Position numbers and translations under genes: made by a program
Part shown: one piece after another, positions 8,120 through 37,905 of the stretch
Numbering within the stretch: position 1 is the stretch's first letter
How the letters are laid out: the number at the start of each line of letters is the position of its first letter
The notes under the pieces: generated by a model
What the model saw: only the letters and a program-made list of their open reading frames with translations
Told to the model about the DNA's origin: nothing
The model's database searches: none
From: Arthrobacter sp. Marseille-P9274
GTDB lineage: Bacteria; Actinomycetota; Actinomycetes; Actinomycetales; Micrococcaceae
Assembly: GCF_946892675.1 (NCBI RefSeq)
Contig: NZ_CAMPOV010000002.1
Location: 744,001 to 808,000, forward strand
Direction: 5' to 3'
DNA length: 64,000 nucleotides

Positions 8120-9751
8120 TCAGCGCTGGGGCCGGAGCGCCTTGCGCCAGAGCACCGTCTCCGCGGCGTCGCGCAGGCTGACCGTGAAGGTGTCGTCCTC
8201 GTCCAGCTCGACGTGTCCGAAGAACTGCCCTTCCCCGGTCCGCGGGGACTGGTTGGTGTAGCCGGCCTTGCTGAAGACCACCTCGGGACCGAAGGTCAGG
8301 TCCATGTCGTTGGGGCCGAAGCTGCCGGCGTTGATGGGCCCGGCGACGAACTCCCAGAACGGGTCGAAGTCCTTGAACGCGGCGCGCTCCGGCGAGTAGT
8401 GGTGGGCGGCGCAGTAGTGCACGTCCGCGGTCAGCCAGACGACGTTCTTGACCTTGTTGTCCTTGAAGGCCTTCAGCAACCGGGCGAGCTCCAGCTCGCG
8501 TCCGAGCGGCGCCCCGTTGTCCCGGTTCGCGATCGACTCCTGCGCCTTGCCGTCCGGCACGATGATACCCAGCGGCAGGTCGGAGGAGATGACCTTCCAG
8601 ATGGCCTTGGACCGGGTGACCTCGCGGATCAGCCATTGCAGCTGCTCCTCCCCGAGGATGCTGGTGGCGTGCGGCTCCACGCCGGGCGTGTTCTCGCCCT
8701 TGAAGGTGCGCATGTCCAGGGCGAAGACGTCCAGCTGCGGGCCGCGCTCGATCTTGCGGTAGATGCGCGCGGGCTCGAAGCCCGTGCCCTTGCGCAGGGC
8801 GCGGGAATCGGCGATCGGCATGTATTCCTGCCAGGCCTGCCGTCCGCGGGCGGCGAGGGTATCGACGTCGCGCACCGTGTAGCGCGGGTCGTCGAGGGTT
8901 TCGCCGTGCCACCAGTTGTTGGTGGTCTCGTGGTCGTCCCACTGCGCGATGACCGGGACCTCCGCGTACATGGCGCGCAGGTTGGCGTCCATCATGTTGT
9001 AACGGTGCCGCCCACGGAATTCATTGAGCGTCTCGGCCACCTTGGAGACCTCTTCGGTCACCAGGTTCTTCCAGATCCTGCCGTCCGGCTCCACGACTTC
9101 ACCGGTGATCGGGCCGTCGGCGTAGACCGTGTCGCCGGAGTGGATGAAGAAGTCGGGACGGGTGCGGTGCATCGCGCGGTAGCCGAGCATGCCACCGATC
9201 TCCTCGTTGATGCCCCAGCCCTGTCCGGCGGTGTCGCCGGTCCAGACGAAGCTCTGCCCGCGCGCAACCTGGTTCCCGCGCACGCTGCTGCGGCCCGCGG
9301 CGGACGGTCCCGCCGCCGTCGTCAGTGACCCGATGCCGGCCTCGCTGAGCGCCCCGGCCTCGTCTTCGAACTGCAGGGTGAGCTGGAAGCGGCTGCCGGC
9401 GGGCAGGTTCCCGGCGTTGACCTTGGCGGTGAAGTCGGTGTCGGCATGCGCCCAGCCGCCGCGCAGGACGCGCTCGTAGGCACCCTTGCCGCGGAGCACG
9501 CGGCCATCGGCTCCGACCGTGCGGAGCGTGGCGATGAGGCGGCCCGGACCCGAGGCGCGGGACCAGAGCACGGCGGAGTTGCTGGTGACGTCGCCGGTGG
9601 CGATGCCGCTGGGGAGCGTGAGGCGCTTGCGGACCAGGGGCACGGCGGCGGGGCGGGCGGCGGCCGACGCCGGTGCGGCACCGGCCGCGGCGACGGTTCC
9701 GGCGGCGGCCAGGGTGCCGAGGACGAGGGAGCGGCGGGAAATCTCAGTCAT
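8120..9751 (-). CDS. phoD: Secreted alkaline phosphatase D (PhoD-like phosphodiesterase/phosphatase)
   Basis: A 543-residue enzyme with a twin-arginine signal (SRRSLVLGTLAAAG, residues 4-17, cleavage near ASAAA) for folded export. After an Ig-like N-terminal domain comes the metallophosphatase core: FVWTGDTAGQGWG, DFFIHSGDTVYADGP (metal-binding Asp), IAQWDDHETTNNWW (NDHE-type motif) and VVWLTADVHYCAAHHY (metal-binding His). It releases phosphate from phosphodiesters outside the cell. The ATG at 9751 is preferred because it starts close to the RR motif; an ATG at 9763 is possible. It is transcribed toward phzF. Confidence 0.93.
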   Translation of the reverse strand: MTEISRRSLVLGTLAAAGTVAAAGAAPASAAARPAAVPLVRKRLTLPSGIATGDVTSNSAVLWSRASGPGRLIATLRTVGADGRVLRGKGAYERVLRGGWAHADTDFTAKVNAGNLPAGSRFQLTLQFEDEAGALSEAGIGSLTTAAGPSAAGRSSVRGNQVARGQSFVWTGDTAGQGWGINEEIGGMLGYRAMHRTRPDFFIHSGDTVYADGPITGEVVEPDGRIWKNLVTEEVSKVAETLNEFRGRHRYNMMDANLRAMYAEVPVIAQWDDHETTNNWWHGETLDDPRYTVRDVDTLAARGRQAWQEYMPIADSRALRKGTGFEPARIYRKIERGPQLDVFALDMRTFKGENTPGVEPHATSILGEEQLQWLIREVTRSKAIWKVISSDLPLGIIVPDGKAQESIANRDNGAPLGRELELARLLKAFKDNKVKNVVWLTADVHYCAAHHYSPERAAFKDFDPFWEFVAGPINAGSFGPNDMDLTFGPEVVFSKAGYTNQSPRTGEGQFFGHVELDEDDTFTVSLRDAAETVLWRKALRPQR

Positions 9752-9857
9752 GGAACCCACCATGTCCGGCGGAGCTGACGGGTTTCTGTCCCGAAGGTGA
9801 ACGTTTCAGGACGGTTCGGAGAGCAACCGCCCTCCGGCGGCCGGACCGGTTAAAGTC

Positions 9858-26245: not shown

Positions 26246-26452
26246 CCGGTCCTCCTGTCCGCGGCCCAGGCGCCGCCGTCGTTGTTTGTCCGTTGTCGCT
26301 GATGGCGGGGATAACCCGCCCCTGTGGCAGACTACCCGCTCGCCTGGTGCGTGCCGGGCCAAAAGTCACGGTGAGGTGTTGACCTGCGGACATTCCGGCG
26401 CGCTTCATTGATACAACCGCAAAAACGGTCTGGACCATCCTGGGAGCGCGTT

Positions 26453-27187
26453 ATGCATCCTGCTGTCATAGACCCCAACTCGACCGACATCGCGCCGGTG
26501 GCCTTCCACCCGGTGCTGTGGGTGGCGGCGGCCTGCGTATTCGCCGTCATCATCCTGCAATCGGTGATCTACCTCAGTGCCATCCGCAAGGCCGGCGCGG
26601 CGGCCCACCTGACCGATCAGCAGGTGGGCCGCGCCGTCCGTGCGGGCGCCGTGGCGGCCATCGGCCCCTCGCTGGCCGTCGCGCTGGTGGCGGTCTCCCT
26701 CCTGCCGCTGTTCGGCACGCCGGCCGTCCTGACCCGCATCGGCCTGGTGGGATCGGCCGCCTTCGATGTCGCGGCCGCGGGCCTCGCGGCGGGAACCCAG
26801 GGCGCCGAGCTCGGCGGTCCGACCTACACGCAGAAGGTCTTCGCCATCGGGTTCGCCGCGATGACGCTCGGCGGGCTCATGTGGATGGTCGCGGCGCTCG
26901 TCCTCACCCCGATCCTGTCCAGGGGCGACAAGGCGCTGCGCAAGGTCAATCCGGCGGTCATGACCGTCGTGCCCGCCGCGGCCCTGCTCGCGGCGTTCTT
27001 CACGCTCGCCTTCGCCGAGACGGTCAAGTCGCCCGTCCATCTGGTGACCCTGCTCGTCTCGGCGGCCGTGATGGGCCTCTGCCTGCTCGGGGCCAGATAC
27101 CTCAAGAAGTCATGGCTGCACGAGTGGGGGCTCGGGATCGCGATCGTCGTGGCCCTGGCCGTCGCCTATTTCATGACCGCCAAGTAG
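26453..27187 (+). CDS. DUF5058 family multi-pass membrane protein
   Basis: A 244-residue protein with about six membrane helices. The N-terminus HPVLWVAAACVFAVIILQSV and the motif FDVAAAGLAAGTQGAELGGP fit DUF5058. It is followed 16 bp later by a second membrane protein. The two are likely subunits of one transporter; no substrate is known. GGGAG precedes the ATG. It diverges from the fumarylacetoacetase-family gene. Confidence 0.82.
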   Translation: MHPAVIDPNSTDIAPVAFHPVLWVAAACVFAVIILQSVIYLSAIRKAGAAAHLTDQQVGRAVRAGAVAAIGPSLAVALVAVSLLPLFGTPAVLTRIGLVGSAAFDVAAAGLAAGTQGAELGGPTYTQKVFAIGFAAMTLGGLMWMVAALVLTPILSRGDKALRKVNPAVMTVVPAAALLAAFFTLAFAETVKSPVHLVTLLVSAAVMGLCLLGARYLKKSWLHEWGLGIAIVVALAVAYFMTAK

Positions 27188-28041: not shown

Positions 28042-29487
28042 CTACGGCTTCAGCGACGGCATCGGGAGGCCGAAGACGTCCTTCAGCGCCAGCCGGGCGG
28101 CGTGGTAGCCGGCCATGCCGTGCACTCCCGGGCCCGGCGGAGTGGCGGCGGAGCAGAGGTAGACGCCGCCGAGCGGGGTCTTCCACGGCTTGGTCCCGGG
28201 GACGGGACGCGCCAGCAGCTGGCGGATGTTGACGGCGCCGGTGCCGAAGTCGCCGCCCACGTAGTTGGGGTTGTAGGCCTGGTAGTCCATGGCGCTCATC
28301 CCGCGGGAGGCAATTACGACGTCGGAGAAGCCGGGGGCTGCTTCCTCCAGTTGCGCGGTGATCACCCCGGTCATGTCCAGCGTGGAACCCTGCGGGACGT
28401 GGCAGTAGGCCCACAGGATGTGCCGTCCGGCCGGGGCGCGGGTGGAATCGAAGACGCTGGGCTGGGAGACGAGCACGAAGGGCTTGGCGGCATGCCGGCC
28501 GCGGGCGATCTCGTGCTCCGAGGCCGCCACCTCGTAGCGCGTGCCGCCTAGGTGCACCGTGCCGGCGCGGGCGAGGTCGGGCTCGGCCCACGGCACCGGT
28601 TCCGACAGGATGAAGTCCACCTTCGCGGCCCCGGGCCCGTACCGGTAGGCACCCAGGGCTGCGGCGTAGCTCCGGGGCAGGCGGCCGCCGGCCAGCCGGA
28701 GCAATTCCTGCGGTGCGGTGTCCAGCAGGATGGCGTCCGCGTCGGTCAGGTCGGCCAGCGAGTCCACCCGGTGCCCGGTGACGATGCGGCCGCCGTGCGC
28801 GGCAACGTCCTGCACCATCGCGTCGATGATCGCCTGCGAACCGCCGACCGGGAGCGGGTAGCCGACGGCGTGGGCAAGGGACCCGAGCATCAGTCCGGCG
28901 CCTGCCGCGACCGGACGCTGCACACCGCCCGGAGTGTGGGCGGCCACCCCGGACAGCAGGGCCGGAGCGAAGTATTCCTTGAAACGCATATCCCACCACG
29001 GGCTGCCCTGTTCCAAGGTGCCCAGTCCGTAGCGCAGGGCCGAGAGGGGATGATGCGGCACGCGCAGCAGCTGGTTCATGGTCAGGTCCAGCAGTTCGGC
29101 GGAATGGCGGGCCAGCGGTTCCATCAGCGCCCGGTAGGCGGGGCCGTCAATGCCGAGCCGCCCGGCCGTCCGTTCCACGTCTTGGTATGCGAATGCGACA
29201 TGGTCCGGTCGGACGACGTGGGCATAGGCGATCTCGGGGTGGATCATGTCGACCCGGTCCGCCAGTCCGAAGTCGCGGAAGAAGGGCGCCGCCACCGCCA
29301 TTGGATGCACGGCGGAGCATACGTCATGCCGGTGCCCCGGCTCGATGAGTTCCAAGGTCCGGGCGCCGCCGCCGGCAGTGGAGGCAGCCTCGTAGACGCT
29401 GACATCCAACCCGGCTCTGGCCATGATTACCGCAGCGGCCAAACCGTTGGGGCCGGCCCCAACCACTGCTACCTGTCCGCGTGCCAT
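28042..29487 (-). CDS. FAD-dependent phytoene-desaturase-like oxidoreductase
   Basis: A 481-residue flavoprotein. The FAD dinucleotide-binding motif AVVGAGPNGLAAAVIMARAG is at residues 8-27, followed by VYEAASTAGGGART. The C-terminal NPNYVGGDFGTGAVNIRQLL and LCSAATPPGPGVHGMAGY match the CrtI/PYROXD2-like group. The substrate is unknown and no carotenoid genes are near. Its ATG overlaps the stop of the upstream mannosyltransferase-like gene (TGATG), so the two are coupled. Confidence 0.92.
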   Translation of the reverse strand: MARGQVAVVGAGPNGLAAAVIMARAGLDVSVYEAASTAGGGARTLELIEPGHRHDVCSAVHPMAVAAPFFRDFGLADRVDMIHPEIAYAHVVRPDHVAFAYQDVERTAGRLGIDGPAYRALMEPLARHSAELLDLTMNQLLRVPHHPLSALRYGLGTLEQGSPWWDMRFKEYFAPALLSGVAAHTPGGVQRPVAAGAGLMLGSLAHAVGYPLPVGGSQAIIDAMVQDVAAHGGRIVTGHRVDSLADLTDADAILLDTAPQELLRLAGGRLPRSYAAALGAYRYGPGAAKVDFILSEPVPWAEPDLARAGTVHLGGTRYEVAASEHEIARGRHAAKPFVLVSQPSVFDSTRAPAGRHILWAYCHVPQGSTLDMTGVITAQLEEAAPGFSDVVIASRGMSAMDYQAYNPNYVGGDFGTGAVNIRQLLARPVPGTKPWKTPLGGVYLCSAATPPGPGVHGMAGYHAARLALKDVFGLPMPSLKP

Positions 29488-30950
29488 CAGTCCCGCCTTC
29501 CCTCCGCCGCGCTGGCTATCGGCTGTGCGCGATAGCGCCAGTCCAACACAAACCTGTCCGGAGCGTTGTCGAACGGCCCGCCCTGGGGGTCATCAACGTC
29601 CAGCCTCCGCACCACGTCATGCTCCGGATGGAGCATGGAGCGCACCACCCGGAACATCAGATATGCCGTGGCAGCAATATGTCCCAGGACGGCAAGGACG
29701 TAGTAGGGAGTGTCGATGTTGTGCTGCGGCTCCCCGCCACTGGTGATCCGGCCAAGGTACATCCAGATGGCCCACCAGTGCAGCACTTCGAAGAACTGCC
29801 AGAGAAGGAAGTCGCGCCAGCGCGGATGCGCCAGCGCGGCGAGGGGAACCAGCCAGACCACGAACTGCGGCGAATAGACCTTGTTGGTCAGCACGAACGC
29901 GGCCACGACCAAGAAGATAATGCCGGCCAGCCGGGGCCGCCGCGGGGCGGACAGGACCAGCACCGCGATGGCCAGGCAGGCCGCCAGGAACAGCAGGAGC
30001 GAGAGCGTGTTGGCCGGACCCGGCCCCAGTTGAGGCAGCCCGCCGCCCTCGGCCGTGACGTTGTAGGCGTACCAGAGAGAGGAATAACCGGCCTCGCGGT
30101 CCCGGGTGTAGCCGAGGAAGTGCGCCCAGGACTCGAAGCCGGAGACCATGAAGGGGACGTTGACCAGCAGCCAGACTGCCGCGGCCGAACCTCCTGTCAC
30201 CAGCAGCGGCCGGAACCGGCCCGTGCGTATCGCCAGGAGGAGGATGGCGCCAAGCATCAGCACCGGGTAGACCTTGAGGGCGGCTCCGAGTCCGATCAGT
30301 ACGCCGGCAGCCACCAGCCGCCCGCGCGCGAAAGAGAGCATGGCCAGAGCCAGCACCATTGCCGGCCAGAGGTCCCAGTTGACGGTGCCTGCCAGCACGA
30401 TGCCCGGGGCCACCGCGACCATGGCCGCATCCCAAGGCCGCCGATGGCACATCCGCGCCGTGGCTATAACCGTGATGATCCAGACCACCGCCGCCAGGGT
30501 GGCATTGACGTCGAAGTAGGCCAGGGTGCGCTCCGGCGACGCCCCGGCGCCCGGCACCAGCAAAGCCGTCGCCCCGGCCAGCAGGCCCATCAGTACCGGG
30601 TATTCGAAGGAACTCCCCGGGGTGAGGAACGGCAGCACGCCGTCGGCCAGGCCACGGGATTCGAACAGGACCGGCCAGTCCGAATAGCAGCCCATGTAGA
30701 AATAGTCGGGCAGCGCCCAGCCGGCCACCCGGCACGGCGTCTTGGCCAGCACCGACAGCAGCGCGGCCAGCGTCGTCAGCAGGATCAGCACTCGCTCCAC
30801 GGTGAAGAAGCCGGGCCGGACGATCCCGGGTGCGGTGCGGCGCCCCAGCGGGCCGCCGACGAATTCCGTGAACCGCCTCAGCAGCGGGTCATTGCGGCTG
30901 GGCACCACGATGCGCAGCGGGAGTCGACGGCGGGAGGAGGGCCCGGGCAT
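29487..30950 (-). CDS. GT87-type polyprenol-phosphate-dependent glycosyltransferase
   Basis: A 487-residue membrane protein with 10-12 helices and the GT-C pattern: an extracytoplasmic acidic loop YFYMGCYSDWPVLFESRGLA after helix 1, SFEYPVLMGLLAGATAL, and NWDLWPAMVLALAML. GT87 enzymes add mannose from polyprenyl phosphate to lipid-linked glycans outside the membrane. It is divergent from the nonulosonic-acid operon and coupled to the FAD oxidoreductase. Confidence 0.87.
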   Translation of the reverse strand: MPGPSSRRRLPLRIVVPSRNDPLLRRFTEFVGGPLGRRTAPGIVRPGFFTVERVLILLTTLAALLSVLAKTPCRVAGWALPDYFYMGCYSDWPVLFESRGLADGVLPFLTPGSSFEYPVLMGLLAGATALLVPGAGASPERTLAYFDVNATLAAVVWIITVIATARMCHRRPWDAAMVAVAPGIVLAGTVNWDLWPAMVLALAMLSFARGRLVAAGVLIGLGAALKVYPVLMLGAILLLAIRTGRFRPLLVTGGSAAAVWLLVNVPFMVSGFESWAHFLGYTRDREAGYSSLWYAYNVTAEGGGLPQLGPGPANTLSLLLFLAACLAIAVLVLSAPRRPRLAGIIFLVVAAFVLTNKVYSPQFVVWLVPLAALAHPRWRDFLLWQFFEVLHWWAIWMYLGRITSGGEPQHNIDTPYYVLAVLGHIAATAYLMFRVVRSMLHPEHDVVRRLDVDDPQGGPFDNAPDRFVLDWRYRAQPIASAAEGRRD

Positions 30951-31001
30951 GGCACCAACACTACTGGCGGCGCGTGGTTATCGCCGCAGGTTAACAAAAC
31001 G

Positions 31002-31033
31002 TTGACTGGCGGCCACCTTCCCGTAACCGCCAG
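31002..31033 (+). promoter_or_regulatory. Candidate promoter/operator of the nonulosonic-acid operon
   Basis: TTGACT (31002-31007) and TAACCG (31024-31029), 16 bp apart, are a plausible -35/-10 pair. Overlapping them is an inverted repeat CTGGCGG (31006-31012)/CCGCCAG (31027-31033), and a third CTGGCGG lies at 30964-30970. The site is 40 bp before the first gene. Regulator unknown. Confidence 0.4.
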
Positions 31034-31072: not shown

Positions 31073-32263
31073 ATGAGCAATACCCACCCCCACCAAGTAC
31101 TGGTGGTGATCCCCGCCCGCGGCGGTTCGAAGGGGATCCCCTTCAAGAACCTCAAACCCGTTGCAGGACGCTCCCTGGTAGCCCGCGCCGTCGAGGCCGC
31201 ACGGAACGCCGCCCGGGTGACGGACGTCGTCGTCAGCACCGATTCGCCGGATATCCGGTTCGAGGCCGAGCGCTTCGGCGCCCGCGTCATCGAACGCCCC
31301 GCGGAACTCTCGGGCGACACCGCCACCAGCGAGTCGGCCGTGCTGCATGCCCTGGCGAACACCGGCACGCGGCCTGAGGTCACGGTACTCATGCAGTGCA
31401 CCTCGCCGTTCATCGATTCTGCGGATCTGGACGCGGCTATCGCCTCCGTGCTCGGCGGTGCGGACGTTGCGTTCTCCGTCGCAGAGAACCACAACTTCCT
31501 CTGGGCCAGGGACGCCGGCGGCACCGTCACCGCAGTCGGCCACAGCGCCGATTTCCGCCCCCGCCGCCAGGACCGCGAGCCGCAATACCGCGAGACCGGG
31601 GCCTTCTACGCGATGCGCACCGAGGGCTTCCTGGCCCGCGGGCACCGCTTCTTCGGCCGCCTCGAGTTCCAGATCGTGCCGGCGGAGCACGCCATCGAGA
31701 TCGATTCGATCGAGGACCTGGAGATCGTCCGGGCGATGGATTCGCGTCCGGAGTCCACCGGAATCGACGTGGATGCGCTCGTCATGGACTTCGACGGGGT
31801 GCACACCGATGACCATGCCTTGGTCAACTTCCAAGGCGAAGAATTCGTCCGGGTCAGCCGCTCGGACGGAATGGGGGTGGCCCGGCTGCGCCGCGCCGGA
31901 ATCCCCCAGCTGATCCTCTCCACCGAAACCAATCCGGTGGTGACCGCCCGGGCGAACAAGCTCGGCGTCGACGTCGTCCAGGACGTCTCGGACAAGGCCG
32001 CCGCGGTGACCGAATGGATCACCGCGAACGGGCTTGATCCAGAACGCGTTGCCTTCGTGGGCAATGACGTGAATGACCTGCCTGCCATGGGCCGGGTCGG
32101 TTGGCCAGTGGCCGTGGCGGATGCCCGGCCTGAGGTCAAGGCTGCAGCGCGCATTGTGCTGCAGCACAACGGCGGCGAAGGCGCAGTGCGCGAAATCTGC
32201 GAACGCGTCCTGGCCGCACAACCGGCAGCCCAACCGGCAGCCACAGCAATTCAATCCCGATGA
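31073..32263 (+). CDS. neuA: CMP-nonulosonate cytidylyltransferase fused to a KdsC-like HAD phosphatase
   Basis: A 396-residue two-domain enzyme. Residues 9-228 are a CMP-sugar synthetase (VVIPARGGSKGIPFKNLKPV with the P-loop-like RGGSKGIPFKN; STDSPDI; QCTSPF; TGAFYAM). Residues 233-396 are a HAD phosphatase of the KDO-8-phosphate type, with D239 and D241 in DFDGV, S283/T284, K308 and D332/D335 in GNDVND, all present. It should activate a nonulosonic acid with CTP and can also remove a 9-phosphate. Mammalian CMAS has the same fusion. It heads a six-gene operon; the next gene overlaps or nearly abuts its stop. Confidence 0.92.
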   Translation: MSNTHPHQVLVVIPARGGSKGIPFKNLKPVAGRSLVARAVEAARNAARVTDVVVSTDSPDIRFEAERFGARVIERPAELSGDTATSESAVLHALANTGTRPEVTVLMQCTSPFIDSADLDAAIASVLGGADVAFSVAENHNFLWARDAGGTVTAVGHSADFRPRRQDREPQYRETGAFYAMRTEGFLARGHRFFGRLEFQIVPAEHAIEIDSIEDLEIVRAMDSRPESTGIDVDALVMDFDGVHTDDHALVNFQGEEFVRVSRSDGMGVARLRRAGIPQLILSTETNPVVTARANKLGVDVVQDVSDKAAAVTEWITANGLDPERVAFVGNDVNDLPAMGRVGWPVAVADARPEVKAAARIVLQHNGGEGAVREICERVLAAQPAAQPAATAIQSR

Positions 32264-32280
32264 CAGAAAGAGCTTCGCTG

Positions 32281-33186
32281 ATGACCACCGAAACCACCGC
32301 CCCCGCCGGAGCCCCGGCCCCCGTAGCCATCGGCGACGTCCAGGTCGGCGCCGGCCAGCCCGTCTACGTGATTGGCGAGATCGGCATTAACCACAACGGC
32401 GACATCGAAATCGCCAAGCAGCTGATCGACGTTGCTGCCGCCGCCGGCGCCAACGCCGTGAAGTTCCAGAAGCGCACCCCGGAAATCTCCACCCCGGTCG
32501 ACATGCGCGACAAGATGCGCTCCACCCCCTGGGGCGACATGACCTACCTGGACTACCGCTACCGCGTCGAGTTCGACATGCCGATCTACCAGAAGCTGAT
32601 CCAGCACGCGGCCGACAAGGGCCTGCACTGCTTCGCTTCGCCGTGGGACGTGCCCTCGGTCGCCTTCATGGAGGAAGCCGGCGCGCTGACCCACAAGGTC
32701 GCCTCCGCCTCCGTCACCGACATCGAGCTGCTGACCGCCCTGCGCGAGACCGGCAAGCCGATCATCCTCTCCACCGGCATGTCCACCATCGAGCAGATCG
32801 ATAAGGCCGTCGAGACCCTGGGCACCGACAACCTGATCCTGATGCACGCCACCTCCACCTACCCGCTGCCCCCGGAGGAGGCCAACCTGCGCATGATCAC
32901 CACGCTGCAGGAGCGTTACCAGGTTCCGGTCGGCTACTCGGGCCACGAGCGCGGCCTGCAGATCTCCCTGGCCGCCGTCGCACTCGGCGCCGTGACCGTG
33001 GAGCGCCACATCACTCTGGACCGCACCATGTGGGGCTCGGACCAGGCCTCCTCGCTCGAGCCCAAGGGCTTCGAGTCCCTGATCCGCGACATCCGCATCC
33101 TCGAAGACGCCATGGGCGACGGCGTCAAGAAGGTCTTCCCGGGCGAGCTGGCGCCGCTGTCCCGCCTGCGCCGGGTGGACGGCTAA
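32281..33186 (+). CDS. neuB: NeuB-type nonulosonic acid synthase without SAF domain
   Basis: A 301-residue TIM-barrel enzyme that condenses phosphoenolpyruvate with a hexosamine or mannose derivative. Signature parts are YVIGEIGINHNGDIEIAKQL, GANAVKFQKRTPE, FASPWDVPSVAFMEEAG, ILSTGMSTIEQID and VPVGYSGHERGLQISLAAVA. Typical NeuB proteins are about 340-350 residues with a C-terminal SAF (antifreeze-like) domain; here the chain ends right after the barrel (SRLRRVDG). ATG at 32281 is preferred over 32260, with GAAAGAG upstream. With no NeuC in the operon, mannose-6-phosphate is a likely substrate. Confidence 0.9.
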   Translation: MTTETTAPAGAPAPVAIGDVQVGAGQPVYVIGEIGINHNGDIEIAKQLIDVAAAAGANAVKFQKRTPEISTPVDMRDKMRSTPWGDMTYLDYRYRVEFDMPIYQKLIQHAADKGLHCFASPWDVPSVAFMEEAGALTHKVASASVTDIELLTALRETGKPIILSTGMSTIEQIDKAVETLGTDNLILMHATSTYPLPPEEANLRMITTLQERYQVPVGYSGHERGLQISLAAVALGAVTVERHITLDRTMWGSDQASSLEPKGFESLIRDIRILEDAMGDGVKKVFPGELAPLSRLRRVDG

Positions 33187-33195
33187 GTTAGCCCT

Positions 33196-34170
33196 ATGAA
33201 CCAGCCATTACTGAGCGTCATCGTTCCAGCGAAAGACCAGGCACCTTTCATCCGTGACTCGATGACCAGCCTGACGCGCCAGTTCGATGATCCCTCCGTA
33301 ATGGAAGTCATCGTCATCGACGATGGTTCAACCGACGGAACCGGGGAGCTGGCTGCCGCATTCGCCAGCCGGCTCCCCGGCCTGAAGATCCTCCGCAACG
33401 AGGCCGCGACCGGCGTCGCCTCCGCCCGTAACCGCGGGCTGGACGTCGCGGCCGGGCGCTTCATCACCTTCCTCGACCCTGATGACTGGTACGCCCCCGG
33501 GCACCTGTCCCGGATCACGGACGAGATCGCCGCGCTGGGCGTGGACTTCCTGCGGGTCGACCACGTGCGGCACACCGGCGGCGTGCGCACTGTCCACAAG
33601 GCGCCCCAGGCGCGCCGCGGGGTCAAGCTGGATCCGCGCAACGACATCGCGCCGCACAACCAGTCCACCATGGTGGACTACTGCTTCCCGCCGTTCGGAA
33701 TTTTCGACGGCGGACTCAAGGACGCGGGCATGCTCCACTTCCTGGACGGCCGGCACACCGCGGAGGACCGCCCGTGGGTCTGGCGGCTCCACCTCAAAGC
33801 CGCCTCCTACGCCGTCAGCAACCAGCTCGGCGCGTTCTACCGGCGCGGCGTCGCGAGCTCCCTGACCCAGGTCTTCGACCGCCGCCAGCTGGACTTCCTG
33901 CCCTGCTTCGCCGAGGTGTTCCGCCTCGTCGCGGAGGACCCCGAAGCCGCCCGCTTCTGGCCCAAGGCCGTCCGCCAGTTCCTTGCCATCGCCTGCCACC
34001 AGCTGGACCGCTCCGGCGACATGGACAAGCAGGTCGTGGCGGAACTCCACGCGGGCATCCGCGCCGCCCTCGCGGGCCTGCCGGACGAGGTGCGCGAGCA
34101 GGGCCTGGCCGGCCTGGACAACAAGCGACGCAAGTTGCTCAAACCTGTGCTCCGGAGAGCTGCCGCATGA
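33196..34170 (+). CDS. Family 2 glycosyltransferase
   Basis: A 324-residue GT2 enzyme: LSVIVPAKDQAPFIRDSMTS, VIVIDDGSTDGTGELAAAF, and the metal-binding DxD FLDPDDWYAP. The C-terminal 130 residues are helical and unlike standard GT2 acceptor domains. It likely adds a sugar in the Kdn-type polymer. It begins 9 bp after neuB and its stop overlaps the next ATG (ATGA). Confidence 0.92.
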   Translation: MNQPLLSVIVPAKDQAPFIRDSMTSLTRQFDDPSVMEVIVIDDGSTDGTGELAAAFASRLPGLKILRNEAATGVASARNRGLDVAAGRFITFLDPDDWYAPGHLSRITDEIAALGVDFLRVDHVRHTGGVRTVHKAPQARRGVKLDPRNDIAPHNQSTMVDYCFPPFGIFDGGLKDAGMLHFLDGRHTAEDRPWVWRLHLKAASYAVSNQLGAFYRRGVASSLTQVFDRRQLDFLPCFAEVFRLVAEDPEAARFWPKAVRQFLAIACHQLDRSGDMDKQVVAELHAGIRAALAGLPDEVREQGLAGLDNKRRKLLKPVLRRAAA

Positions 34171-35612
34171 AAGAACTCTTTGTCGTTTCCACGCTGTACC
34201 AGTGCATCTCGCTGGCATCCGCCATCGACGCCGGCCGGATCCCGGACCGGGGCGCCGAGCGCATCCTGGTCCTGACCAACAGCGCCCTGATCCCCGAGAT
34301 CACCGTGCCGTTCCACGAGGCTCCCGGCTTCGCGGAGGCGGCGGCCCGCTTCGACCGCACCGTGGACCTGAGCGAGCTGCTCTGGCCGCGCCGGCCCGGG
34401 CAGTTCAACCCGCGGGCCGAGGAGCTGGACCTCTGGGAGCGCCTGCTCCGGGCCGAATGGAACCTCGGCGACGCCGCCGTGAGCCTGTTCGTCGAGTCCA
34501 TCCAGGTCAACCCGGCGGTCGCGCTGTGCCGCATCTTCGCCGACGCCGGCATCAGCGTGCACTCGGACGGCCTGATGAGCTACGGCCCCACCCGCAACCC
34601 GCTGCCGCGCGAACTGGCGCAGCGGCTCGAGACGCTGGTGTACGTGGACCTGGTGCCCGGTCTGGTGCCCCGGCTGCTGCGCGAACACAACCCGGCCCTG
34701 GTGCCCGTGGACCGCGCCGACCTGCGCCGCGGCATGGAAGCGCTGGCGCGGACCCTGCCCGAGGACGATGCGGTGGCCGCCGCCATCAGCGGGACCCCCG
34801 CGGCGGAGCTGGAAAAGCACAGCGCCGACCACGGCGCCTCCGGCAGCGCGCTGATCCTCGGCCAGTACCTCTCCGAGCTCGGCATCCTCTCCGCCGAGGA
34901 AGAGGTCGAGCTGCATCGGAACATGCTGCAGAAGGCCCTGGACCGGGGCATCCGCCACTGCGTCTTCAAGCCGCACCCCAGCGCCGGCCCCGGTGCCGTC
35001 ACCTCCATCCAGGCCGCCGCCGCCGAACTCGGCCTGGAGCTCGAAGTGCTGACCTCGAGCAGCCCGGCGGAGGTCGTCATGCAGCGGCTGAAGCCGGACC
35101 TGGTGGTCAGCTGCTTCTCCACCGCCCTGATGACGGCGAAGCACCTCTTCGGCATTGACGCCGCTGCCGTTGGCACCGAAATCCTGCTCGAGCGGCTCAC
35201 GCCGTACCAGAACAGCAATCGCATCCCGGTCACCATCATCGACGCCTTGCTGGAACGCGGCTACGCCGCCCCCGCCGAGGCGGCGGCGGAAGAGGCGGCG
35301 GAAGCGGCCGGATTCGAAGCCACCCGGACGCTGGACGCTTCGCCCGAGCGGTCGGCCCCGCTGCAGCAGCTGGTCGAGGCCGTGTCCTACTGCATGCAGC
35401 CGCAGACGCTTGAGCTGGCACGGCCCGCCGCCGAGGCCTTCCTGGCCGACGCCCAGCACACCGGGGACCTGCGCTACTTCAAGCGCCGCCGGCTGACCAA
35501 GCTGGAGCTGCCCGGCTCCCTGCCGGCCGCCAAGGTGCTCCATCCGCTGGGCCGCGCCCGCCGCGCCGGCGCCCGCCAGGTCAAGCGCGTCCTGACAGCG
35601 CTGGCGAAATGA
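34167..35612 (+). CDS. Polysialyltransferase family protein
   Basis: A 481-residue GT-B protein that resembles the alpha-2,8-polysialyltransferase family (PF07388): ELFVVSTLYQCISLASAIDA at the N-terminus, HSDGLMSYGPTRNP, the CMP-binding motif VFKPHPSAGPGAV and SCFSTALMTAKHLFG. It may transfer or polymerise the nonulosonic acid. The last 90 residues are extra and basic. ATG at 34167 overlaps the GT2 stop by four bases. Confidence 0.82.
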   Translation: MKELFVVSTLYQCISLASAIDAGRIPDRGAERILVLTNSALIPEITVPFHEAPGFAEAAARFDRTVDLSELLWPRRPGQFNPRAEELDLWERLLRAEWNLGDAAVSLFVESIQVNPAVALCRIFADAGISVHSDGLMSYGPTRNPLPRELAQRLETLVYVDLVPGLVPRLLREHNPALVPVDRADLRRGMEALARTLPEDDAVAAAISGTPAAELEKHSADHGASGSALILGQYLSELGILSAEEEVELHRNMLQKALDRGIRHCVFKPHPSAGPGAVTSIQAAAAELGLELEVLTSSSPAEVVMQRLKPDLVVSCFSTALMTAKHLFGIDAAAVGTEILLERLTPYQNSNRIPVTIIDALLERGYAAPAEAAAEEAAEAAGFEATRTLDASPERSAPLQQLVEAVSYCMQPQTLELARPAAEAFLADAQHTGDLRYFKRRRLTKLELPGSLPAAKVLHPLGRARRAGARQVKRVLTALAK

Positions 35613-36640
35613 TGCAGGAAATCCTGCCCTCGATGCTGGTGGCCCGGCCGCGCTTCGGCCGTGCCACGGTCTGGGCCGAGTCCCCGCTGCAGCTGCTCAG
35701 CGCCGTGGAAGCCCACGGCGCCGGGCTGCTGGGCAACGAAACCGTCATCCACTCGCGCAGCGACGCTGTCGGCATGGACGCCACCCTGGCCGAGCTGCTG
35801 AGCCAGGTCCCGGAGGGCATCAGCTTCGCCGACCCCGGGTCCTCAGTGCCGCCGCTGCGCGTTCCGGGCCTGGACCGCTGGGTCATCGGGGACGCCTACT
35901 CCGGCATGGCGCAGGCGGAACTGCTGCGCGGAGTGGCGGACAAAGAGATTGTGATTGTCGACGACGGACTGGCCACGCTCAAGCTGCTGGCCACGCTGGC
36001 GAAGGACTCGCCGGCCCCGCTGGTGCGCCCGCGGGCAGCCGCCTCCTCCGTCCGCAAGGCGCTCGGCCTCGCGGTCTGGTTCCTGCTGCGCCGGCTCACC
36101 CGCCAGAGCCGCCTGCTGGTGGTCACGGCGCTGCCGGTGCCGCTGGACCTCGAGCAGCGTTTCCGCGCCGTCGGCGGCCAGCTGGAGCGCCACCGCTTCG
36201 AATGGCTGGGAACGCAGCCGGTGACGGAAGAGATCAACGAGCCCACCGTCGTCGTTGGTTCCGCGATGGCCGCGGACGGCCTCATCCGCGAGGAGCCCTA
36301 CCTGGCGTGGGTCGAATCACTGACGGAGGACGGACCCGTGGGCTATTTCCCGCACCGGCGGGAGACGCCGGCCTCCCTCGCCAAACTGGACCGGCACCCG
36401 CTGATCCGCGTCAACCGGCACACCATTCCCGTGGAGATGCGCCTGCGCGGACTCCGCGCCGGACAGGTCGTCCGGGCGCTGCCGTCCACCGTGCTGGCCT
36501 CGCTCCGCCTGATCCTTGGACCCAACGGGGTTCCGCTGAAGGGCCACGCCGTGCCGGACAACTGGTGGCTGCCGCAGGCCTCGGACTCGCTGCGCCGGCA
36601 CCTGAGCAGTTCCCTCGACGACGGCGGATCACCCGCATGA
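35609..36640 (+). CDS. Sialyltransferase-like protein of unknown specificity
   Basis: A 343-residue protein that starts with TVWAESPLQLLSAVEAHG, a common opening in bacterial sialyl- and polysialyltransferases, then IVIVDDGLATLKLLATLA. The C-terminal half has PVGYFPHRRETPASLAKLDR, which looks like the nucleotide-binding H-R/E motif, and IRVNRHTIPVEMRLRGL. I cannot match it to a named family with certainty, but its position between two glycosyltransferase genes and its overlap (ATGATG) make a role in polymer assembly likely. Confidence 0.7.
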   Translation: MMQEILPSMLVARPRFGRATVWAESPLQLLSAVEAHGAGLLGNETVIHSRSDAVGMDATLAELLSQVPEGISFADPGSSVPPLRVPGLDRWVIGDAYSGMAQAELLRGVADKEIVIVDDGLATLKLLATLAKDSPAPLVRPRAAASSVRKALGLAVWFLLRRLTRQSRLLVVTALPVPLDLEQRFRAVGGQLERHRFEWLGTQPVTEEINEPTVVVGSAMAADGLIREEPYLAWVESLTEDGPVGYFPHRRETPASLAKLDRHPLIRVNRHTIPVEMRLRGLRAGQVVRALPSTVLASLRLILGPNGVPLKGHAVPDNWWLPQASDSLRRHLSSSLDDGGSPA

Positions 36641-37905
36641 GCACCGAAAATTTGAACCCCTTGAAGGCGGCACGGAAGATGCGCATTGTCGCCATCGCTG
36701 ACAGCGACTCCTACCTGAAGTTCGCCTGCGCCACGCTGGACGCCCTCGGCCCGGAATGGGAGCGCGAGGTCCTGCTGGTCCGCTCCCCCATCCAGCCGAC
36801 CTTGGAACAGATGGCCGCGGCCACCGCCGGGACCTTCCTGCACGGCCGCGCCACCGCGGTGATCCCCGCTTCCGGCCTGCGGACCGCCCTGGCGGGCGCC
36901 GACGTCGTACTCGCCGCCGCCACCGGCCCCGTGGTCGAGGAGGTCTATCTGCACGCCGCCGCGCTGACCCCGCGCCCGGCGCTGGTGTCCGGGCTGCCCG
37001 GCGTCGCCTTCCCCGCCACCAAGAAGGCGCTGCGCTACCGGGCGCTCGGAGACGCCTTCATCACGCATAGCCACGCGGAGTGCCGGGCCTTCAGCGAACG
37101 CGCCGAGGGCCTCGAGCTTCCGCAGCGAATCCTGGTCTCCCGGCTGCCGTTCCTCTCCTCCCCCGAGGCGCCGGTACCCGATCCCACCCCGCTGAAGCGC
37201 GTGGTGTTCGCCCCGCAGGCCAAGGTGCCCGTGGAGAAGGACGAGCGGGTCGCCATCCTGCAGGCGCTGGCCGCACTGGCCCGCCGCACCGGCTTCACGG
37301 TGCGGGTGAAGCTGCGGGCCTGGGCCGGCGAGCCGCAGACCCACCTGGAGCAGTATCCGTTCGACACCCTCTGGAACGACCTGGTGAAGGCCCGCGCGGT
37401 GGCCGGCCATGAACTGGAGTTCTGCACCGGCTCGATGGCCGAGCAGCTGGTCCCCGGCACGGCCATGGTCACCGTCAGCTCCACCGCCGCCCTCGAAGCA
37501 CTCGACGCCGGCCTGCAGGTGCTGATCCTGTCCGACTTCGGGGTCAGCGACGAGATGCTCAATAAGGTCTTCGACGGCTCCGGGCTGCTCGGCACCCTCG
37601 ATGACCTGAAGGCCGGCCGCTTCTTCCACCCGGAGCACAGCTGGCTGCGGGACAACTACTTCCACCGGCAGGACGTGCCGCTGGGCCACGTGCTCGCCAT
37701 CTACGCCGAGTGGGCCCGGACCGGCAAGCTCGCGCTGGACCCGGACCGGCTGGCGGCCACGCGAAAGCGGCGGCTGCGGCTGCGCCTGCGCACCCTCCTG
37801 CCGACGCCCGCACTGAAGGCCATCCGCTGGGTCCGCCAGCAGCAGCGGAACCACGACGCCCGCCGGATGGAGGCGGAGCAGGCCGCTCACAGCCTGCCCG
37901 CCTGA
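36637..37905 (+). CDS. DUF6716 putative glycosyltransferase
   Basis: A 422-residue GT-B-like protein, start ATG at 36637 overlapping the previous stop (ATGA). MRIVAIADSDSYLKFACATL opens a Rossmann domain; VVFAPQAKVPVEKDERVAIL and the TVSSTAALEALDAGLQVLIL motif near residue 280 resemble CDP-glycerol/poly-ribitol-phosphate or sialyl-type transferases. Last gene of the operon. Role likely in chain extension or linker addition; this is inferred. Confidence 0.78.
   Translation: MSTENLNPLKAARKMRIVAIADSDSYLKFACATLDALGPEWEREVLLVRSPIQPTLEQMAAATAGTFLHGRATAVIPASGLRTALAGADVVLAAATGPVVEEVYLHAAALTPRPALVSGLPGVAFPATKKALRYRALGDAFITHSHAECRAFSERAEGLELPQRILVSRLPFLSSPEAPVPDPTPLKRVVFAPQAKVPVEKDERVAILQALAALARRTGFTVRVKLRAWAGEPQTHLEQYPFDTLWNDLVKARAVAGHELEFCTGSMAEQLVPGTAMVTVSSTAALEALDAGLQVLILSDFGVSDEMLNKVFDGSGLLGTLDDLKAGRFFHPEHSWLRDNYFHRQDVPLGHVLAIYAEWARTGKLALDPDRLAATRKRRLRLRLRTLLPTPALKAIRWVRQQQRNHDARRMEAEQAAHSLPA

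Follow-up and report, generated by a model that had tools for sequence, protein, structure and literature searches.

A collinear six-gene operon in an Arthrobacter genome predicted to make CMP-Kdn and a Kdn-containing cell-wall polymer

Within a 64,000-nucleotide stretch of the Arthrobacter sp. Marseille-P9274 genome (the window; G000:C2:744001–808000 of a 4.78-Mb genome in 16 contigs), six plus-strand open reading frames form an operon with predicted roles in the synthesis and polymerization of the nonulosonic acid Kdn (3-deoxy-D-glycero-D-galacto-non-2-ulosonic acid). A first-pass annotation of the DNA had placed these genes at 31073–37905, and their coordinates and overlaps agree with our analysis (Table 1). 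Pfam and NCBIfam searches likewise returned the domain content that it had proposed: CTP_transf_3 with a KdsC-type HAD domain, NeuB, Glycos_transf_2, A-2_8-polyST and DUF6716. The genes are tightly packed. The junctions between the glycosyltransferase family 2 (GT2) and polysialyltransferase-like (polyST, p4) genes, between polyST and p5, and between p5 and p6 are 4-base overlaps, and 9 bases separate neuB from the GT2 gene. With the first ATG (32260) as the start of neuB, the synthetase–phosphatase gene (neuA) overlaps it by 4 bases; with the second methionine (32281), a gap of 17 bases separates the two.

Table 1. Positions of the operon genes and of nearby features in the window
Feature	Position	Strand	Basis or remark
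CMP-nonulosonate (CMP-Kdn) synthetase, about residues 1–225, fused to Kdn-9-phosphate-type HAD C0 phosphatase, about 229–381 (predicted)	31073–32263	+	PF02348, KdsC-type HAD models
NeuB-family synthase, predicted Kdn-9-phosphate synthase, without C-terminal SAF domain	32260–33186	+	PF03102
GT2 glycosyltransferase, predicted to transfer the neutral repeat sugar	33196–34170	+	PF00535
Polysialyltransferase-like protein (p4), predicted Kdn transferase or polymerase	34167–35612	+	PF07388; 4-base overlap with GT2 gene
p5, second sialyltransferase-like GT-B protein, without Pfam family	35609–36640	+	Invariant motifs, predicted model
p6, DUF6716 putative glycosyltransferase, GT-B-like	36637–37905	+	PF20471, low-confidence model
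PHO-box-like 11-nucleotide repeat position before neuA, degenerate in the window	31011–31032	+	9/14 matches; clear in four relatives
Divergent GT87 (GT-C mannosyltransferase-like) gene	29487–30950	−	PF09594; linkage to operon
PhoD-like phosphatase gene	8123–9763	−	

The first gene encodes a fusion protein whose N-terminal synthetase domain matches PF02348 (Pfam, 1.4e-21), whose C-terminal domain is matched by KdsC-type HAD models of NCBIfam, and which scores 166 bits against PDB chain 3mmz_A. We compared the operon with two sets of loci: those of the other 18 p6-bearing genomes among 59 genomes searched with p6 (the related loci), and the best 80 of 535 matches to the phosphatase of chain 3mmz in Streptomyces. 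Synthetase and phosphatase share one open frame in 16/16 related loci and in 80/80 Streptomyces loci. We aligned the phosphatase domain with chain 3e81_A, the Kdn-9-phosphate (Kdn-9-P) phosphatase of Bacteroides (which we take to be BT1713), and number residues from that chain. Glu56, Arg64 and Lys67 are conserved in the window and throughout the same 16 related and 80 Streptomyces loci. Four KdsC-type chains, of which 3ij5 and 7t35 are named KdsC phosphatases and 2p9j and 3mn1 only hypothetical or YrbI-like proteins, all have Arg at position 56, and have Thr (3ij5), Thr (7t35), Glu (2p9j) and Ser (3mn1) at position 67. Arg64 is common to these chains too, so only positions 56 and 67 discriminate. 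Glu56 and Lys67 are presumably the residues that set specificity, which fits the existence of solved structures for the mutants E56A (4hgq) and E56A/K67A (4hgr). A pathway to 3-deoxy-D-manno-oct-2-ulosonic acid was considered and rejected: the synthase is of the NeuB family, and at positions 56 and 67 the phosphatase carries Glu and Lys, in contrast to Arg and Thr, Ser or Glu in the four KdsC-type chains.

The synthase matches PF03102 (Pfam, 4.1e-77) and is the only NeuB found in a genome-wide search. No SAF domain was found by Pfam in the 308-residue window protein, and the C-terminal ends of its homologues in 16 related loci lie between −3 and +8 residues of its own. NeuB of the 80 Streptomyces loci has 16–17 extra C-terminal residues, too few for a SAF domain, and is therefore SAF-less as well. 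The closest solved structure by sequence is 6ncs_A, a 290-residue chain named sialic acid synthetase; because this enzyme is also short, a short NeuB alone is no proof of Kdn.

The remaining four proteins had been described as glycosyltransferase-like, two of them resembling sialyltransferases, and this description holds. The GT2 protein matches PF00535 (1e-29) and p4 matches PF07388, the A-2_8-polyST family (3e-30), both in Pfam. No Pfam or NCBIfam family matched p5, and its alignment with 18 Streptomyces homologues contains invariant ESPxQLL, VDDGxAT, HRRE and PST motifs, of which HRRE presumably lies where the known polysialyltransferase family has its HP motif. A predicted model of p5, of middling confidence (mean predicted local distance difference test score (pLDDT) 65.4), has its best structural match in a bacterial polysialyltransferase (5wcn, Z 14.4; 5wc6, Z 14.2; next entry 11.7), which is why p5 can be counted as the second sialyltransferase-like protein. 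Its top Foldseek match is a Neisseria lipooligosaccharide sialyltransferase; TM-scores to the Foldseek matches are low. The likeness of p5 to 5wcn/5wc6 is one of predicted structure, whereas p4 falls within the polysialyltransferase family itself; p5 is only 12–13% identical to the solved enzyme and has no PF07388 match. The last protein, p6, matches PF20471 (Pfam, 1.8e-124). Its model is poor (mean pLDDT 56.6), with Foldseek matches suggestive of a GT-B fold, and the literature we searched contained no mention of DUF6716 or PF20471. According to excerpts of the published work, a Streptomyces wall polymer consists of galactose and Kdn (PMC11481543) and that of Promicromonospora citrea of Glc-Glc-Kdn (PMC6801904). 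With hexoses accompanying Kdn in the known wall polymers, one GT2 hexosyltransferase and one PF07388 Kdn transferase would fit such a product. The first-pass annotation had stated that relatives of Arthrobacter carry Kdn wall polymers; for Arthrobacter itself the parts of the literature searched gave no confirmation, and the nearest case found is P. citrea, of the order Micrococcales like Arthrobacter.

The gene set is conserved. All 10 genomes of the genus, the present one among them, carry p6, as do 19/59 genomes searched overall, and 15 of the 18 related loci and 75 of the 80 Streptomyces loci contain the full set of seven domains, a recurrence from which we conclude that the set is not a chance assembly. 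Two of the incomplete related loci (L022 and L023) are interrupted by a contig end; in the third, L031, the synthetase–phosphatase, NeuB and p6 are present and GT2, polyST and p5 were not detected. The five incomplete Streptomyces loci, lacking either GT2, polyST and p6 (L102, L124 and L137) or p5 (L064 and L069), all end at a contig end. In one related locus, L030, p5 and p6 are encoded on the other strand. Across 394 genomes drawn from the class, DUF6716 matches at E 0.001 occur in 84, with 81 over the cut-off. A plasmid search with p6 returned a single record, of Nonomuraea gerenzanensis (11.85 Mb), in a stretch without listed features, and added nothing further. Some p6 matches contain one in-frame stop (G001, G013, G019 and G025) or are split (G018, G019 and G025), which may reflect gene ends, errors of assembly or a genuine disruption.

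Excerpts of one paper call SCO4873–SCO4882 of Streptomyces coelicolor a teichulosonic acid gene cluster under PhoP control and cite the region as published in 2014 by Ostash et al. (PMC13011467), so the earlier statement that the assembly genes are poorly defined needs revision. In the three Streptomyces loci that we mapped (L081, L084 and L134), polyST and GT2 lie on one strand and p6, synthetase–phosphatase, NeuB and p5 on the other. The published product names, as given in parts of two further sources (PMC2267785; PMC8269224), are hypothetical protein for SCO4877, glycosyltransferase (GT2) for SCO4878, hypothetical for SCO4879, transferase or sialic acid synthase for SCO4880, polysaccharide biosynthesis related for SCO4881 and hypothetical for SCO4882, and the order of the mapped loci fits SCO4877–SCO4882. 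Both kinds of locus have the six homologues together, the same fusion, a SAF-less NeuB and a GT2–PF07388 pair. They differ in arrangement: in the three mapped Streptomyces loci the GT2–polyST pair is divergent, p6 precedes the synthetase gene and p5 follows neuB, whereas all six window genes are collinear; p5 and p6 are also only about 27–31% identical to their Streptomyces homologues. By gene content, the view that the operon belongs with the known teichulosonic acid loci of the Streptomyces type, as a compact and collinear representative, and is not a new system is well supported. New details are the SAF-less NeuB in the relatives examined, a linked divergent GT87 gene and a second GT2–polyST pair. 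The Streptomyces gene set thus exists outside that genus as a compact six-gene operon with the same fusion and synthase, a simple testable unit for sorting out glycosyltransferase roles. Its sequence marks may also help to predict which soil bacteria have wall Kdn that phages, toxins or sialidases may recognize.

Searches for competing sugar routes point to the same nonulosonate. The annotation had found no hydrolysing UDP-GlcNAc 2-epimerase (NeuC) in the operon, and this extends to the whole genome, in which the sole Epimerase_2 match is a WecB-type enzyme (257.5 bits; cut-off 210.15). NanE exceeded its cut-off in 0/10 genomes of the genus, all of which carry p6, and in 13/59 genomes searched. 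For the pseudaminic acid route, the best PseB match in the genome reached 187.2 bits and did not pass the cut-off of 407.75. Together, a 9-phosphatase and the lack of a source of N-acetylmannosamine (ManNAc) make mannose-6-phosphate the likely substrate of the synthase and Kdn its likely sugar. After these searches, the pseudaminic acid and N-acetylneuraminic acid (Neu5Ac) routes were judged less likely. The Neu5Ac alternative is a phosphorylated, animal-type pathway, from ManNAc-6-phosphate to Neu5Ac-9-phosphate, feeding a polysialic acid-like polymer. NeuB, a 9-phosphatase and a CMP synthetase would suit it as well as a Kdn route, PF07388 is named for alpha-2,8-polysialyltransferase, and the best curated model for NeuB is N-acetylneuraminate synthase, albeit at 247.9 bits, well under the cut-off of 399.65. 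We nevertheless regard it as highly improbable: no NeuC was found in this genome and no NanE over the cut-off in any of the 10 genus genomes, which leaves no evident source of ManNAc-6-phosphate, and the SAF domain, by which other NeuB enzymes contact the N-acetyl group, is missing from this NeuB. The available parts of the literature, moreover, tie the Streptomyces locus that has this gene set to a Kdn polymer.

The Kdn route resembles known pathways in two other lineages. The annotation had likened the gene set to the Kdn route of Bacteroides; Glu56 and Lys67, the NeuC and NanE results, the single NeuB and the Streptomyces gene set all support this. The operon and the Bacteroides thetaiotaomicron pathway (BT1714 synthase) have in common a phosphorylated Kdn route and the three conserved sugar-binding residues of the phosphatase, but in the window phosphatase and CMP synthetase form one protein, and polymer-building glycosyltransferases lie in the operon. 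In the alga Prymnesium parvum, as described in the accessible text of one report, a Kdn-9-P synthase, which used mannose-6-phosphate and none of six other sugars tested, is similarly followed by a CMP-Kdn synthetase; this source differs from our case in that no clear Kdn-9-P phosphatase homologue was found and its accessible text describes no polymer genes (PMC6200933).

Several observations weigh against a Kdn-specific interpretation. Although Glu56 and Lys67 separate nonulosonate-9-phosphatases from KdsC, they may not separate Kdn-9-P from Neu5Ac-9-phosphate phosphatases. With 92.7 bits, the phosphatase domain stayed below the cut-off of 180 for NF058599, the NCBIfam model of Kdn-9-P phosphatase. 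Its scores for two KdsC models were slightly higher (106.9 and 97.7 bits), likewise under their own cut-offs; we propose that the domain probably works like a Kdn-9-P phosphatase and do not claim formal membership of NF058599. Weak NanE matches below the cut-off occur in 6/10 genomes of the genus, and NanE exceeds the cut-off in 4/19 p6-bearing genomes, clearly in G013, G025 and G031 and in G056 only by summing neighbouring pieces of the frame. The match to SCO4877–SCO4882 is drawn from gene order and published product names only.

On balance, the gene content suggests that the operon very probably makes CMP-Kdn and builds a Kdn-containing cell-wall glycopolymer, a teichulosonic acid. From mannose-6-phosphate and phosphoenolpyruvate, the NeuB-type synthase would form Kdn-9-P; the fusion protein would then release Kdn through its C-terminal HAD domain and convert it to CMP-Kdn through its N-terminal domain. 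For the glycosyltransferases we infer a division of labour in which the GT2 and PF07388 proteins add a neutral hexose and Kdn in turn, and p5 and the DUF6716 protein may supply the initial residue, side residues or additional sugars of the repeat. Genes for export and for linkage to peptidoglycan would lie outside the operon. The six genes include no exporter or wall ligase, as would be expected if Kdn were made for a secreted or capsule-like polysaccharide, or for the decoration of another wall polymer, and not for a wall-anchored teichulosonic acid. A second GT2–polyST pair on another contig (L014:7831–10229; G000:C1, approximately 138.8–141.2 kb), 69% and 72% identical to the operon's proteins and beside a UDP-glucose/GDP-mannose dehydrogenase gene, also favours such a product. 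We consider it unlikely, as all six homologues occur together in Streptomyces, whose teichulosonic acid is a cell-wall polymer according to excerpts of PMC11481543. The other operon proteins have no match in the 19-kb stretch around the second pair. With CMP-Kdn supplied by the six-gene operon, this pair could give rise to another Kdn polymer. A bolder and rather doubtful proposal combines two ideas: that a SAF-less NeuB next to the fusion marks a dedicated, strictly mannose-6-phosphate-using Kdn-9-P synthase clade across Actinobacteria, and that the operon and the detached pair each build a Kdn polymer of this organism from the same CMP-Kdn.

Beyond the operon, the product of the divergent GT87 gene matches PF09594 (Pfam, 2.9e-10) and is a possible polymer-decorating enzyme. 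A homologue adjoins the operon in 12/18 related loci, with L022 and L023 ending, and L030 cut, before the GT87 position; for the catalase gene downstream of the operon the count is 6. No GT87 relatives were found in the 80 Streptomyces stretches. The window also carries a gene for a DUF5058 protein (26408–27184, plus strand).

Phosphate control of the operon is plausible, and phosphate starvation may raise its expression. Using a published PHO box definition (PMC7244524), we found PHO-box-like 11-nucleotide direct repeats before neuA in 4/12 upstream regions, with 13 (L024 and L033), 12 (L027) and 11 (L029) matches out of 14, scores that at most 1.2% of shuffles attained in each case. In the remaining 8/12, the window included, values did not fall below 0.05; the window has 9/14 matches at the shared repeat position, and a fraction of 0.114 of shuffles equalled or exceeded its best site (GTTAAC-type, 30990). 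Five sequences, picked after the results had been seen, gave a joint score of 55, a value inflated because these sequences are related; 0/1000 shuffle sets reached it (maximum 37), and of 420 consensus permutations only the consensus itself did. Among Streptomyces p6 upstream regions, 2/13 fell below 0.05 and 11/13 were not significant. PhoD-like phosphatases are typical phosphate-starvation genes; in the window, the upstream region of the PhoD gene served as an intended positive control and gave no significant PHO box (0.106). Just before the repeats lies a block, GGTTAACAAAACGTTG (30989–31004), that 6/8 aligned genus sequences, among them the window, share without change; a seventh differs at one position.

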